A stretch of 32,418 bases of DNA, taken from Candidatus Zipacnadia bacterium. GTDB taxonomy: Bacteria; Armatimonadota; Zipacnadia; Zipacnadales; UBA11051. Both the position numbers and the translations under genes were made by a program. Within the stretch, counting starts at the first letter, position 1; every line of letters begins with the position of its first letter. The notes under the pieces were generated by a model. The model saw only the letters and a program-made list of their open reading frames with translations. It was not told where the DNA came from and ran no database searches. This document shows, in pieces, positions 14,393-31,206 of this stretch. Where the stretch lies: contig JALGTY010000008.1 in assembly GCA_029821145.1 (NCBI GenBank), positions 1-32,418 on the forward strand. Direction: 5' to 3'.

Positions 14393-14576
14393 CCCGCCGG
14401 GCAGCGGTACTGCGGGCGCTAACCTACGTTATTTGCGAAGACAACCCGAATGAGCGTCTCAAAACCGTCCGAGGAGCTGTCAAAGCCCATTAACACCAAT
14501 TCGCAGTTCTCTCTGAATCACGAGGCGACACAATTATCAGCTACGTTGCTCAACTTTCAAAATTTTTGCCGGAAGG

Positions 14577-14621
14577 GTGTGGGAAACCCGCTTTTTTTCC
14601 AAAAAAGCGGGTTTCCCACAC
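14577..14621. terminator. Perfect 21-bp hairpin between convergent genes
   Basis: GTGTGGGAAACCCGC plus six T (14577-14597) is exactly inverted at 14601-14621 around a 3-nt loop. It lies between the 3' ends of the MBL-fold gene (plus) and the response regulator gene (minus), so it probably terminates both, though the T/A run lies inside the stem. The rest of 14393-14576 is relatively AT-rich and shows no gene. Confidence 0.6.
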
Positions 14622-14642
14622 GCCGTTCATCAGTTATCCCAG

Positions 14643-23209: not shown

Positions 23210-23246
23210 GCTAAAACAGCTAAAAGCCTCCTGTTGACCAGGAGGC
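23210..23246 (-). terminator. Terminator or attenuator between the histidine kinase gene and rpiB
   Basis: On the minus strand GCCTCCTG pairs with CAGGAGGC around a short loop (23226-23246), followed by TTTTAGCTGTTTT. Upstream, GACCA can instead pair with TGGTC in the hairpin's first arm and loop, a possible anti-terminator. An extra hairpin, GTCTCC/GGAGAC, precedes it (about 23270-23292). Confidence 0.7.
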
Positions 23247-23335
23247 CTCGCGAGCTTGGTCTGGCGATCTGTCTCCCGGAGCGTGGAGACTAGGACGTAT
23301 TCACGTGCAGATATGACGGTACGCGGTGCGCCGCA

Positions 23336-25627: not shown

Positions 25628-25656
25628 ATTATATCGGACGCCACCGAGGATGTCAA
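25628..25656 (-). promoter_or_regulatory. Consensus sigma70 promoter for the S1-domain gene
   Basis: TTGACA (25651-25656), a 17-bp spacer and TATAAT (25628-25633): a perfect match. The -35 box overlaps the stop codon of the upstream gene. Confidence 0.92.
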
Positions 25657-26435
25657 GCACACAGGTCGTGCGCCGCCTGGCGTATCTCGCCATTGGGATG
25701 ATGTTCAGCGACAAAGCCCAGCGCGGCCTTATCGCCGGCCCGCTCGAGTTCGCTGAGCTGTTCACCCAGCAGCCGCGCTACATTTTCCGCTACCGCCTTG
25801 AGCTTAGCCGACTCACTTATAGCGATGAGGTCCGCGGTTCGCTTCGCGCTGAGTAGCTCTGTCATCCAGCGCTTATGGTTGGCCAGCTTCATAGCTGCCT
25901 GCCGGCGCGTCTGGTCGAAAGGGCAGGCTTGGGCGATCACCAACAGGGCTGTACCCGGCCCCGGTTCGGGCAGCCGGCTGGCCAGTTGCGCCACGATCAG
26001 ATCGCGCACCGGATCGCGATCCACCTGGGCGGCGTGCCGGTGGGAGATGGTTCGCCGCTCGGCGGCCGCATCGGCCATCTCCTGCATGTCTTCCATAATG
26101 TGCTCCGGTACCCCGGCGGCATCTTCTTCCTCATCAATATCGCGAAACACCCGGCGGGCTGCACTCCCGGCCCTTGGCGCCTCCAGTCCAGGCCGGCGCA
26201 GTTGCCGCCGCAGGCAAGCCGCCCTGGCCAGGGGCTCGTACCGGCTCTGGGCCAGCAACTCATTCACGATCCGCCGCGCGGCCGCCTCCGTGGCGGTGGG
26301 CAGCAGCAACCCCAGCAGTTCCCATTGCTCGCCCTCCACCAGCTTTGCCAACGCCCGTTCGACATCCGCGGTGGTCGCGGCACTGATCATCGCCTCCACT
26401 TGCCGACTGTACTGAGCCAACTTGTTCAGGTCCAT
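25653..26435 (-). CDS. Unrecognised all-helical protein (HEAT-like)
   Basis: About 260 residues from ATG 26433-26435 (MDLNKLAQYS); a longer frame starts at TTG 26483. The sequence is Ala/Leu/Arg-rich with repeated helix pairs. The C-terminal part resembles HEAT or TPR-like units (for example DLIVAQLASRLPEPG and GDKAALGFVAEHHPNGEIR), with an acidic linker (DIDEEEDAAG) near the middle. I do not recognise a family. No signal peptide or membrane helix is seen. Coding is supported by continuous length and by codon use like its neighbours. It ends where the S1-gene promoter begins. The purine-rich stretch upstream (about 26530-26580, minus strand) makes the ribosome site hard to choose. Confidence 0.7.
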   Translation of the reverse strand: MDLNKLAQYSRQVEAMISAATTADVERALAKLVEGEQWELLGLLLPTATEAAARRIVNELLAQSRYEPLARAACLRRQLRRPGLEAPRAGSAARRVFRDIDEEEDAAGVPEHIMEDMQEMADAAAERRTISHRHAAQVDRDPVRDLIVAQLASRLPEPGPGTALLVIAQACPFDQTRRQAAMKLANHKRWMTELLSAKRTADLIAISESAKLKAVAENVARLLGEQLSELERAGDKAALGFVAEHHPNGEIRQAAHDLCA

Positions 26436-26595
26436 GTCCGCTCTGTCATCCTCCTCTGGGTCTTGGCGTCCGTGTTCCTCCAATTTTGCCCAGCGTTATC
26501 TGCTCTTGCATACGGTTGTCTATCTTCTCGTGCTGTTCCTCCCTTGCTCTCTTCCTTCCTCCCTCTTTTCCAGTGACCAGGACTTTTGGGAATAT

Positions 26596-26637
26596 TTTGC
26601 CAATACTCTTGGCAAATTCGTCACTATGCGCTACACT
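26596..26637 (+). promoter_or_regulatory. Promoter with an operator-like palindrome
   Basis: TTGGCA (26609-26614), a 17-bp spacer and TACACT (26632-26637). A perfect inverted repeat, TTTGCCAA (26596-26603) and TTGGCAAA (26609-26616) with 5-bp spacing, covers the -35 box, as a repressor site would. The expected start of transcription is near 26644. Confidence 0.6.
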
Positions 26638-26643
26638 ATATTC

Positions 26644-26767
26644 GAATTCGTAAGACGGTGTCGCCCTTTGACATGTAACCGACCCAAGCAAATGCCCAAA
26701 AAGCCCCCCGGTTAAAAGCTGGGGTTATCTGTCCCCTGCTGTGAGAATCAGCAGGGGACTTTTTTTG
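26644..26767 (+). ncRNA. Candidate small RNA or attenuated leader, about 124 nt
   Basis: It is bounded by the promoter at 26609-26637 and a strong terminator at 26731-26767 (GTCCCCTGCTG paired with CAGCAGGGGAC, then seven T). A second stem, AGCCCC with GGGGTT, lies just before it (about 26700-26726). No convincing coding frame is inside, and I do not recognise a known riboswitch class. It is either a free-standing sRNA or a terminator-controlled leader of the DUF4129 operon that starts about 100 nt later. Confidence 0.55.
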
Positions 26768-26868
26768 CGTGCTCCCCAGCGTGGCGGACAGCAGGACATG
26801 GCCACTTCCAAGGCGAAATGGGCAGAGGCTGCATATCTTTCCGATTTGCCAATGGCCACTGCAATCTC

Positions 26869-27621
26869 ATGACTAGCCGCGCCGCACACAACAAGGGTAT
26901 GATCCGGCTAGCGGCGGCTGTGCTGCTGATTACTGGCTTAGCCACTATAGCTACGCCCGCGGGCATTGCGCAAGGCCTGCCCCCCGACCGTCCACCCGAG
27001 CCGCTACTCCGTCAGCAGATCGCTGAGATTCTCAGCCACTCGGAATACCAGATCGGCCCTCCGCTATGGCTGATCAGGATTATCAACAAGGCGGGGGACT
27101 TTCTTCTCCGCCTGCTCCGCGCCATCTTTATGAACCCGGTGATGTCCCACCTCTACCAGACCATGCCCCTGCTATACTGGCTCCTGGTCATAGTCTTGCT
27201 GGCGGCCATAGTCCTGCTATTGTATCACATCGTGGTCACCATCCGGAGCGCCTTCGGCCGCCGGCATCGCCAGCGCCGCGAGCCAACTGACGCGGCCCGG
27301 TTGCCGGTCACCTCGCCGGGCGAGCTGCGCCGCCGCGCCCGCAGACTGGCCGACGGGGGTGACTTCGCCGCGGCGCTGCTGGCGCTGCACCAGGCCTGTT
27401 TGCGCTGGCTTGAGCGCCACGGTCACTTACGGTATCGTCCCTGGCTGACCAACGGCGAATACCTGGGCGCGGTACGCACCAAGCCGCAACTATTCCGCCT
27501 GCTGACGCCCCTGACCCGGGCGGCGGACCGCATCGCCTACGGGCGGCAGTCGCTGGCCGCTAGTGCTTATCTCGAGCTTGACGCCCTCGCCGACCAGCTC
27601 TGGCAACGGGCGGGTGGTTAG
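26869..27621 (+). CDS. DUF4129-domain membrane protein
   Basis: About 250 residues. Hydrophobic N-terminus (LAAAVLLITGLATIATPAG, signal peptide or anchor), a short extracytoplasmic segment, one membrane helix (LLYWLLVIVLLAAIVLLLYH), then a basic cytoplasmic stretch and the DUF4129 domain: AALLALHQACLRWLERHG, then RPWLTNGEYLG. Three ATGs are possible (26818, 26869, 26899). The last gives the neatest signal peptide, but none has a strong ribosome site. It is the first gene of DUF4129-DUF4350-MoxR-DUF58, a set often found together and linked to envelope assembly or stress; the biochemical role is unknown. Confidence 0.85.
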   Translation: MTSRAAHNKGMIRLAAAVLLITGLATIATPAGIAQGLPPDRPPEPLLRQQIAEILSHSEYQIGPPLWLIRIINKAGDFLLRLLRAIFMNPVMSHLYQTMPLLYWLLVIVLLAAIVLLLYHIVVTIRSAFGRRHRQRREPTDAARLPVTSPGELRRRARRLADGGDFAAALLALHQACLRWLERHGHLRYRPWLTNGEYLGAVRTKPQLFRLLTPLTRAADRIAYGRQSLAASAYLELDALADQLWQRAGG

Positions 27622-27623
27622 CC

Positions 27624-28925
27624 ATGCGTCATCTCCGATTGGTTCTGGTGATTGTTGGGCTGGTGGTATTCTTCACGCTGCTGATGGCGTATCTCACCTC
27701 GCGCTCGCCGACATACGACCTCACGGCCGATCACGCCAGCTTCCGCACCAATGAGTGGGGCACCAAGGCGCTGCGCGAGCTATGCAAGCGCAACGAGCTT
27801 ACCGTGCAGACTTACCGCCGGCCCTGGGATGAGTTTGCCGCTCCTGAGCGGGCGGTTATGTGTGTATTCGATCCCAATTTTGGCCCACAGAAACAGGGAA
27901 TCAAGGCCCTGGTCGAGTGGGTAAGAGGCGGCGGACACCTGCTGCTGGCTGTCAACACCGCCAGCGCACTCGGATTCAACCCTATGTACGAGCACCTGGA
28001 TGCCAATCACGTTATGCTTGGCTACCTGGGCCTGTTGACAAAGCCCCTGGGCAAATACGGGGAGACGGTGGCGGTACGCTCGGTGGTGCCTTCGCCGGTG
28101 GCCCATCAGGTCACCCGGCTGCTGGTGAAGTCTCCGGCCCGCCTGGTCGCGGCGCAGTCACCCGAAGACATCCAGCAGCACTGGGGCAACCGCGTAGGTG
28201 ACGACCAGAAGCTGCCCAAGATTACTCCGCTGGCGTTCGACGAGCGAGTGGCGCTGCTGGCTGATGAGGCGGGAGTGCTAGTGATGCGACTGAAGCTGGG
28301 CACGGGCCTGATTGACGTAATCAGCGACGCTGATATCCTGGGTAACGGGCAGATCGGCGAGGCCGACAACGCCGTCCTGGCGATGAATCTGATATACACG
28401 CGTGGCACGCCTACGACGGTCTACTTTGATGAGTATCATCATGGTCGGCGCACGCGGCCATTTGCTGACGAGCGTCTGCCGGGCGCCGCGATCTTTCCGG
28501 CAATCTGGGCCGCGCTGATCTGCCTGTTCCTATACCTGACCGGCAGCTTCTGGCGGTTCGGGCGACCGGTACCGCTGACGCCGGAGCCACGCCGCTCGCT
28601 GGCCGAGCATATCCAGGCCTTTGCCGGCCTTTACGACGGTGCTCAGGCCACCGGCGCGGCTATCACGATGATTGCCCAGCGCTTCCACTCGCGCCTGGCC
28701 CAGCTAACCGGGTTGGGCCCGGCGGCCTCGGCCCAGGATCTGGCAACGGCCGCAGCACGCACGGCAGACATAGATATACTGGCTCTGACGAGGTTACTTA
28801 CCGAATTGCAAGCCATTGACGCCGACACCCGACTTTCCCAGTCCGAGATGCTGCACCTGGCCCAACGTATTGCCTATTTCGAGGAGGCCCTAACTGATGG
28901 AAAGCCATCCGACTCCCCCCTCTAA
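27624..28925 (+). CDS. DUF4350-domain membrane protein
   Basis: 433 residues. An N-terminal anchor helix (LVLVIVGLVVFFTLLMAYL) is followed by an extracytoplasmic GATase-like region that includes NEWGTKALREL, a VRGGGHLLLAVNT strand and the DEYHHGRR motif. A second helix (AAIFPAIWAALICLFLYLTG, about 288-307) and a cytoplasmic helical tail follow. It begins 2 nt after the DUF4129 stop and overlaps the MoxR gene by 29 nt, so translation is likely coupled. DUF4350 proteins typically accompany MoxR/DUF58 genes; the function is unknown. Confidence 0.88.
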   Translation: MRHLRLVLVIVGLVVFFTLLMAYLTSRSPTYDLTADHASFRTNEWGTKALRELCKRNELTVQTYRRPWDEFAAPERAVMCVFDPNFGPQKQGIKALVEWVRGGGHLLLAVNTASALGFNPMYEHLDANHVMLGYLGLLTKPLGKYGETVAVRSVVPSPVAHQVTRLLVKSPARLVAAQSPEDIQQHWGNRVGDDQKLPKITPLAFDERVALLADEAGVLVMRLKLGTGLIDVISDADILGNGQIGEADNAVLAMNLIYTRGTPTTVYFDEYHHGRRTRPFADERLPGAAIFPAIWAALICLFLYLTGSFWRFGRPVPLTPEPRRSLAEHIQAFAGLYDGAQATGAAITMIAQRFHSRLAQLTGLGPAASAQDLATAAARTADIDILALTRLLTELQAIDADTRLSQSEMLHLAQRIAYFEEALTDGKPSDSPL

Positions 28926-29868
28926 GACACACCAGCTCGCCCAGCAAGTCACCCAGATGCTCAGCCGCGCGATAGTCGGCCAGCATGCGGTTATCGAGCA
29001 ACTCCTGGTCGCGGTCCTTGCCCAGGGGCACGTGCTTATGGAGGGCGTCCCCGGCGTCGCCAAGACCCTGCTGGCCCGGGGGCTGGCTGCCTGTCTCGGC
29101 CTGGAGTTCAAGCGCATTCAGCTCACTCCCGACCTGATGCCCTCCGATATCCTGGGCACCTACGTCTTCGACTTCACCACCAAGGAGTTCCACCTGCGCC
29201 GGGGGCCGATCTTCACCACACTGCTGCTGGCCGACGAGATCAACCGGGCGCCGGCCAAGACGCAGTCGGCCCTGCTGGAGGGCATGCAGGAGCGGCAGGT
29301 GACCATTGAGGGAGTCACTGACCAACTCGACGACAACTTCACGGTCTTTGCCACACAGAACCCGATTGAATACGAGGGCACCTATCCGCTGCCCGAGGCG
29401 CAGCTCGATCGCTTCCTGCTCAAGGTCATAGTGGACTACCCCACGCCGGAGGAGGAGGACGAGCTCCTGGCGCGGTTCCACCGCGGCTTTGATCCGCAGA
29501 AGCTACGCGAGGCCGGTCTGGAGCCGGTGATGACGGTCGCGGAGCTGGATGAGTGCCGCCAGGAGATCGTTAATGTCAACGTCGAGGAGGCGGTACTGCA
29601 CTATATCGGCGAGATTATCCGGCGCACCCGCGACAGTGGCCAGTTGGTGCTGGGGTGCAGCCCGCGCGCGGCGGTGATGCTACTCCAGGCGGCCAAGGCG
29701 CTGACGGCCATGCACGGCGCTGACTTCCTCACGCCCGACGACATCAAGACCATTGCGCCGGCGGTGCTGCGCCACCGCCTGATCCTGCGCCCGGAGGCAG
29801 ACATTGAAGGTCTCAGCCCTGACGACATCATCCAGAACATCCTGGCCTCGGTACCGGTGCCCAGATAG
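28897..29868 (+). CDS. MoxR-family AAA+ ATPase
   Basis: A 323-residue AAA+ protein. Walker A GVPGVAKT (50-57, Lys56), Walker B LLLADEIN (Asp113/Glu114), sensor 1 in FATQNPIEYEGTYPLPEAQLD (quoted in parts: FATQNPIEYEG, then LPEAQLD), and a C-terminal lid with GCSPRAAVMLL. MoxR proteins act as cytosolic chaperones that mature or activate partner proteins, typically vWA/DUF58 proteins such as the one encoded next. The ATG lies within the end of the DUF4350 gene. Confidence 0.96.
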   Translation: MESHPTPPSKTHQLAQQVTQMLSRAIVGQHAVIEQLLVAVLAQGHVLMEGVPGVAKTLLARGLAACLGLEFKRIQLTPDLMPSDILGTYVFDFTTKEFHLRRGPIFTTLLLADEINRAPAKTQSALLEGMQERQVTIEGVTDQLDDNFTVFATQNPIEYEGTYPLPEAQLDRFLLKVIVDYPTPEEEDELLARFHRGFDPQKLREAGLEPVMTVAELDECRQEIVNVNVEEAVLHYIGEIIRRTRDSGQLVLGCSPRAAVMLLQAAKALTAMHGADFLTPDDIKTIAPAVLRHRLILRPEADIEGLSPDDIIQNILASVPVPR

Positions 29869-29895: not shown

Positions 29896-31206
29896 ATGAT
29901 TCTTACACCACTGGGTCTGGCAATTCTGCTCATCGGCCCGCTGCTAATCGTGCTGACCGAGCCTTACCCGTCGCTCGCGGGCCTGGGCTGGGGTTGGATG
30001 GTTTTCGTGGTGCTGGCGGCGGTGCTGGACAATCTGCTCTCGCGCCGCGCCAGCGTGGTGGAGGTCTCCCGGCGGATTGACGATCGGCTCTCGCTGGGCA
30101 CCGAGAACCGGGTAGAGATTGATGTTTACAGCCGCAGTGACCGGCCGCTTGACCTGCTGGTCAAAGACGATCCGCCCCTGGGCTTCCAGACGTCGCAGCG
30201 TCAGCACAACCTGAAGCTGGCCCCTTTCCAGACTCAACGCGTCGGCTATGACACCGTCCCCCAGGCGCGGGGCGACTACCAGTTCGGTGATATTCACCTG
30301 CGCGGCCGGTCGCGCCTGGCGCTGAGCTGGTGGCAGCGGCGCATTCCCGCCGAACAGGCCATCCAGGTTTACCCCGATCTCCTCCAGGTCCATCGCTACG
30401 ACTTGATGATGCGCAAGTCCCACTTGCAGCAGCCGGGCTTCCGGCTGTTACGACGCCTGGGCGAGGGTACCCAGTTCGAGAGCCTGCGCGACTACGTGCC
30501 CGACGACGACTTCCGCGACATTGACTGGAAGGCCAGCGCCCGCCGCAGCAAGCCGATTACACGCAACTACCAGATCGAGCGCAGCCAGAACCTCATAGTG
30601 ATGATTGACGCCGGCCGGATGATGTGCGCCCAGCTCAACGGTATGTCGAAGCTCGACTATGCCATCAACGCCGCGCTGATGCTGGCCTACGTCGCCATCC
30701 GCCAGGACGACGCGGTCGGGATGATGGTCTTTGCCGACACGGTGCAGACCTTCGTCCCCCCGCGCAAGGGCGCGGCCCAGATCGGCCGCCTCGCTGACCA
30801 GCTCTACGCCGTTGAGCCAACGATGATGGAGCCTGACTACAGCGCGGCTCTGACGACGCTGCATACTCGCAGCCGCAAGCGCGCGCTGGTCGTTATCTTG
30901 ACGGACATCATTGACAAGGAGGCTTCGCAGCAGCTTCTGGCGCACGCGGCGTCTCTCTACCCCCAGCATCTGCCGCTCGTGGTGACCATCCGCGACCCCC
31001 GCCTTGAGCAGACGGCCGACCTGGCCCCCCAGGATATCCCCGCGGTGTACCAACGCGCGGTCGCGGGCGGGCTGCTGCGGGATCGCCAGGGCGCGCTCCT
31101 GGCGCTGCGCCGACGCGGCGCCCGAATCGTAGACGCGCGGCCTGAGCAGCTCACCGTCGCCACCGTCAACACTTATCTTGCCATCAAGGCCCAGCAGCTA
31201 CTGTAG
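29896..31206 (+). CDS. DUF58 protein with vWA-like domain
   Basis: 436 residues. Two N-terminal hydrophobic helices (about 5-22 and 30-45) anchor an otherwise soluble protein. The DUF58 signature is EFESLRDY-like (here FESLRDYVPDDDFRDIDWKA), followed by a vWA-like domain with VMIDAGRMM in the MIDAS position. Only the first Asp of the usual DxSxS is kept; Ser positions are replaced by Gly and Met. It is the probable client of the upstream MoxR. The start is ATG, 27 nt after the moxR stop, with GAGCGG nearby. A REP-like hairpin follows immediately. Confidence 0.92.
   Translation: MILTPLGLAILLIGPLLIVLTEPYPSLAGLGWGWMVFVVLAAVLDNLLSRRASVVEVSRRIDDRLSLGTENRVEIDVYSRSDRPLDLLVKDDPPLGFQTSQRQHNLKLAPFQTQRVGYDTVPQARGDYQFGDIHLRGRSRLALSWWQRRIPAEQAIQVYPDLLQVHRYDLMMRKSHLQQPGFRLLRRLGEGTQFESLRDYVPDDDFRDIDWKASARRSKPITRNYQIERSQNLIVMIDAGRMMCAQLNGMSKLDYAINAALMLAYVAIRQDDAVGMMVFADTVQTFVPPRKGAAQIGRLADQLYAVEPTMMEPDYSAALTTLHTRSRKRALVVILTDIIDKEASQQLLAHAASLYPQHLPLVVTIRDPRLEQTADLAPQDIPAVYQRAVAGGLLRDRQGALLALRRRGARIVDARPEQLTVATVNTYLAIKAQQLL

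Follow-up and report, generated by a model that had tools for sequence, protein, structure and literature searches.

A predicted short transcription unit, candidate small RNA gene or leader, before a DUF4129-MoxR-DUF58 operon of Armatimonadota related to Candidatus Zipacnadia

Between a divergently oriented gene and a DUF4129-DUF4350-MoxR-DUF58 operon of a sediment-type bacterium, we describe a short unit made of a promoter and an intrinsic terminator, which would produce a non-coding RNA of about 124 nt and which is found between the same two genes in one relative (G008, JAUVXR010000013.1, 60% protein identity). This unit is a candidate for a new small RNA or for a leader. Its presence in one close relative and not in others points to a small RNA that is probably real but of local scope, and not to a general switch for the MoxR/DUF58 genes. 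The reading that we put first, with a little less than an even chance of being correct, is that of a stand-alone small RNA gene restricted to its lineage. A leader of the operon comes second and a functionless transcript third, because the antiterminator that the leader would use is not conserved and because little weight can be given to the failure to detect a promoter downstream of the terminator.

The predicted unit and its surroundings

The window, meaning here the whole stretch of 32,418 nucleotides that was analysed, is contig C374 of the genome bin G000. The unit lies between a divergent gene of 260 aa with no Pfam match (25653-26435, minus strand), which flanks it in the window and in G008 only, and four genes of the plus strand, encoding DUF4129 (26869-27621), DUF4350 (27624-28925), a MoxR-type AAA ATPase (28897-29868) and DUF58 (29896-31206). 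The preferred start of the DUF4129 gene is the ATG at 26869, which aligns with the DUF4129 ATG of G008, and the ATG at 26818 is also possible. On the minus strand, a promoter that matches the sigma-70 consensus at 12 of 12 positions (TTGACA-17-TATAAT, 25628-25656) stands directly before a gene for an S1-domain protein related to GSP13/CvfD.

The predicted promoter of the unit is of the sigma-70 type and lies on the plus strand. Its -35 box TTGGCA (26609-26614) and its -10 box TACACT (26632-26637) are separated by 17 nt and match the consensus at 9 of 12 positions in the promoter scan; the aligned boxes of G008, TTGACA and TATACT, have the same spacer and make a better promoter than that of the window (11/12). 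From the position of the -10 box we infer a start at 26644, so that the predicted transcript would cover 26644-26766 on the plus strand; its counterpart in G008 has the same length. The unit ends with an intrinsic terminator (26731-26766, plus strand) made of an 11-pair stem, GTCCCCTGCTG-7-CAGCAGGGGAC (26731-26759), followed by TTTTTTT. By script, only three terminators in 4901-32418, this one included, have a perfect stem with at least six G-C pairs. It ends 51 nt before the ATG at 26818 or 102 nt before the one at 26869. The unit thus has two features of a stand-alone small RNA gene, its own promoter, as judged from sequence, and its own intrinsic terminator. The promoter with its terminated unit of about 124 nt, and the very strong terminator about 100 nt upstream of DUF4129, had both been claimed in an earlier note on this DNA, and both are confirmed here. 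The same is true of the claimed absence of an ORF, since no long ORF was found within the predicted transcript, which holds merely an in-frame run of 15 codons.

Within the transcript, a C-rich stretch CCCCCC (26704-26709, plus strand; TCCCCCC in G008) has its 3' part inside a small hairpin, CCCCGGTTAAAAGCTGGGG (26706-26724, plus strand). The 124-nt RNA has a predicted folding energy of -41.4 kcal/mol (z -3.48), and none of 200 shuffles is as low; as the terminator alone would lower the energy, this is no evidence of further structure.

The -35 box is embedded in a perfect palindrome of 8+8 bases, TTTGCCAA-TACTC-TTGGCAAA (26596-26616, unstranded), whose arms have zero mismatches. Its right arm contains TTGGCA, so the overlap of TTTGCCAA-N5-TTGGCAAA with the promoter stands as it was first noticed, and the palindrome is a candidate operator. 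When 26484-26818 was shuffled 1000 times with its dinucleotides preserved, 54 of the shuffles contained some perfect inverted repeat with arms of at least 8 and a spacer of up to 10, and the palindrome by itself is therefore only mildly unusual. In the search through the genome suggested along with it, the palindrome occurs once in bin G000 with up to two mismatches allowed, a count of doubtful meaning because C374 apparently comes from another organism (see below); in favour of an operator, the half-site TTTGCCAA has 4 copies on both strands of the 32-kb window against 0.52 expected, all of them within 509 b (26344-26852). These copies include additional half-sites on the plus strand inside the divergent gene (26344-26351) and in the interval that separates the two candidate starts of DUF4129 (26845-26852). 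Any 8-mer reaches four copies in 5 of 1000 shuffles of 26301-26900, in a clustering test that is post hoc. The half-site is absent from 12 kb around the locus of G008 and the palindrome is not conserved there, and the -35 box of G008 carries another short inverted repeat, TGACATAATGTCA. From these sequences, an operator specific to the lineage of the window is possible. Among the matches listed, sites with up to 3 mismatches to the palindrome are more numerous than those of a reversed-pattern control in 7 of 8 genomes, a count from which we draw no inference as the control differs in composition from the palindrome. One site in G021 (L136, C4:32471-32491) shares 18 of the 21 bases of the palindrome and its spacer, and lies directly upstream of a gene whose translated start resembles that of an ECF sigma factor.

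Conservation and distribution of the unit

In G008 the unit follows the same order: promoter, a diverged 5' half, the C-rich stretch, the small hairpin and a terminator with an identical stem. The distance from the -35 box to the terminator stem is 122 nt in the window and 123 nt in G008, and that from the stem to the start codon is 138 and 136 nt. The 7 consensus pairs of the small hairpin are all kept, with three one-sided changes that break none of them, and no column shuffle out of 1000 gives a consensus as stable. The consensus hairpin of the 5' half is weak (10/1000 column shuffles are as stable, and 68/1000 have as many compensatory pairs). Intergenic identity to G008 is of 20-53% per 30-column block at 26480-26629 and of 77% at 26749-26777. 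Since promoter, spacing, C-rich stretch, hairpin and terminator all match, the unit has been retained while most of the intergenic sequence diverged.

The identity of the terminator stem has no particular weight in this argument. Indeed, another terminator of the same collinear block (23226-23247), taken as a control, likewise differs from its G008 counterpart in the loop but not in the stem; stem identity is thus ordinary for terminators at this distance, and the idea of a special conserved sequence was discarded. As read from the two sequences, the argument rests on the conserved promoter, the fixed spacing and the small hairpin. As far as two carrier genomes, too few for a proper covariation test, can show it, the structure and position conserved in G008 support a real short transcription unit. 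The expectation that both would be conserved among relatives is thereby borne out in one of them, and fails as a wider claim: the unit is present in 2 of the 46 genomes of the class (G000 and G008), and five DUF4129 loci differ.

These five loci belong to one family (G018, G021, G030, G037 and G038) and have a different sequence upstream of DUF4129, which argues that the unit is not ancestral to the operon. In G032, DUF4129 is cut by the contig end and its upstream side is unreadable. The divergent gene has a different neighbourhood in G032, G021, G018 and G039. The unit goes with the order of the divergent gene and DUF4129, and this order is found in two genomes only.

A covariance model (R1) was built from the window and G008, which both score high by construction. 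In the class, 6 of 46 genomes have a match at E ≤1, and the matches are real only in G000 and G008; of the other four (G040, G030, G012 and G001), the two whose sequence was inspected, G040 and G030, were rejected as homologues. With laxer filters, the search of 15 genomes of the family gave nothing further below E 0.09. Across the 291 genomes of the phylum, G008 scores 90 bits and any other place 31.8 at most. There, 24 genomes have a match at E ≤0.1, with 28 places listed, 24 of them outside G000, G008 and G040. Among the 20 of these 24 that were read, 16 are a C/G-rich stem followed by at least four T, most of them directly after a reading frame, so that they resemble ordinary terminators, and none of the background places was accepted as a homologue. 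The covariance search proposed in the earlier note thus recovers the unit of G000 and G008, but nothing convincing in the class (46 genomes), the family (15) or the phylum (291). When the leader was compared as DNA with 61 genomes, only the window itself stood above chance (best other match 19 bases, E 0.02), and the unit of G008 was missed.

The pattern CCCCTGC-N3..14-GCAGGGG occurs in 20 of 28 genomes, partly as terminators at gene ends, and in G008 and G030 the single site precedes DUF4129. G030 was not counted as a carrier, its site following a short codirectional reading frame. In this genome the frame, which has about 77 codons in a translation made by eye, stops at the terminator just before DUF4129, and the sequence before DUF4129 in G037 looks related to this stretch. 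Viral contigs scanned for the 3' pattern gave 0 matches, and a protein scan of the genome contigs gave 6 loci, all in the same genomes. Searching the plasmid collection with 16S brought up no relative of use.

The kinship with G008 bears on the origin of the contig. Bin G000 is 87% complete and 7% contaminated, and it holds a second DUF4129 copy on C118. The DUF4129 protein of the window is 57-60% identical to those of G008, G018 and G021, which are of another family, and 27-33% identical to those of the two genomes of the bin's own genus with a match. Over a 2.4-kb stretch, identity is 81-86% to G032 and G008, whereas the genus of the bin reaches 74% at best. Contig C18 of G008 and the window are collinear over about 27 kb, with genes about 75-89% identical. 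C374, which also carries the rRNA operon, is therefore a probable contaminant of its bin. A stretch of the window that is missing from G008 holds, at about 14576-14622, a long near-perfect inverted repeat (GTGTGGGAAACCCGC...GCGGGTTTCCCACAC) whose loop contains runs of T and of A and which is likely a two-way terminator. According to PMC10290634, Candidatus Zipacnadia is a class of Armatimonadota.

Small RNA, leader or functionless transcript

If the unit is a small RNA gene, the sigma-70-type promoter at 26609-26637 would start an RNA of about 124 nt, ending at the terminator of 26731-26766, in which a variable 5' half would be followed by the C-rich stretch, the small hairpin and the terminator hairpin. 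Small RNAs with C-rich motifs act on G-rich ribosome-binding sites through their C-rich segment. Action in trans would be the most likely here, with the partly exposed C-rich segment reaching the G-rich ribosome-binding sites of putative targets. In the window, the level of the RNA would depend on a repressor bound to the palindrome that covers the -35 box.

The position of the unit, just before an operon and with no promoter detected after the terminator, would also fit a leader with conditional termination, which we consider possible but rather unlikely. The RNA would start at 26644 and usually stop at 26766. In response to a signal, the small hairpin would release its 3' arm, which would then pair with the 5' arm of the terminator and so allow read-through into DUF4129-DUF4350-MoxR-DUF58. 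The short distance from the terminator to DUF4129 (51-102 nt), its near constancy down to the start codon in G008 and the predicted pairing of the two arms (-12.2 kcal/mol in the window, -9.0 in G008) are all in its favour, and in the window the nascent RNA is predicted to fold into the antiterminator at 98-105 nt. In G008, however, the small hairpin persists in the predicted nascent fold, which means that the switch is not conserved and conditional termination is without comparative support; the conserved pair of mutually exclusive terminator and antiterminator that characterizes attenuation leaders is not found when the two nascent folds are compared. This counts in favour of the small RNA reading. 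Downstream of the terminator, our own scan, which is insensitive, detected no promoter in either the window or G008, but this silence says little since the scan is equally silent close before DUF4129 in G018 and G021. The unit also matches no known riboswitch or leader family. The earlier proposal of a small RNA or a leader for DUF4129-DUF4350-MoxR-DUF58 is thus partly supported: its short unit is found again in G008, but neither the palindrome nor the alternative fold that conditional termination would need is conserved there.

A transcript without function, in which a chance or relic promoter would be joined to a terminator whose only role would be to shield the operon from transcription coming from upstream, seems to us less probable again. 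This would account for the presence of the unit only where the divergent gene adjoins the DUF4129 operon, an order of two genomes, and for a terminator stem whose identity is normal when compared with 23226-23247; in each of G030 and G037, a short codirectional reading frame ends at a terminator located much as this one. An insulator, on the other hand, would not need the promoter and the small hairpin, which are kept too.

It is improbable that a repressor on the TTTGCCAA sites and an attenuating leader would jointly control the MoxR/DUF58 membrane-chaperone operon, even if the palindrome over the promoter and the half-sites about 250 b on either side would allow a DNA loop; the literature searched gave no description of such two-tier control of MoxR/DUF58 operons. 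Finally, a 15-codon leader peptide, read from TTG to TAA, that would control the terminator through its translation is very improbable and was rejected: both the window and G008 have its frame, traced by eye, open over the same length, but 15-codon open runs are common by chance, the start is a TTG with no clear ribosome-binding site, and by a count made by eye only 3 of 15 residues are common to both peptides and hence not conserved.

Relation to known regulatory systems

If transcribed, the unit would add a candidate small RNA or leader to the Armatimonadota related to Candidatus Zipacnadia, for which the accessible part of the literature on Armatimonadota and small RNAs apparently contains nothing on such RNAs, and it would provide a first handle on the control of the DUF4129-MoxR-DUF58 operon. 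We found no literature on DUF4129 together with MoxR and DUF58. Being limited to two genomes, the unit would not explain how such operons are regulated in general. In Riemerella anatipestifer, the accessible text of PMC11834572 reports that PhoP regulates moxR and that PhoPR controls the moxR/Bat operon. This is likewise an operon of the MoxR-DUF58 type under transcriptional control, but through a protein regulator, with a different operon make-up and in a different phylum, and that text notes no RNA element.

At the gathering score, no Rfam family was found for the unit, and the matches in the window are rRNA and tRNA only. With a relaxed threshold the matches are weak and not common to G008; the best one, missing in G008, is the anti-hemB small RNA (RF02837, which scores 22.7 bits where the gathering score is 49.5), a structural likeness below threshold with an RNA of an unrelated locus.

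Attenuation leaders have a promoter, a hairpin and a terminator shortly before an operon, with overlapping complementary arms. The unit has the same layout and overlapping arms, but its alternative fold is not conserved in G008 and it has neither a ligand domain nor a conserved leader peptide. Small RNAs of the RsaE/RoxS type are short independent transcripts that act in trans through C-rich motifs and end with an intrinsic terminator. Although restricted to two genomes, unlike these RNAs, the unit resembles them in its predicted short transcript, its C-rich stretch and its terminator.
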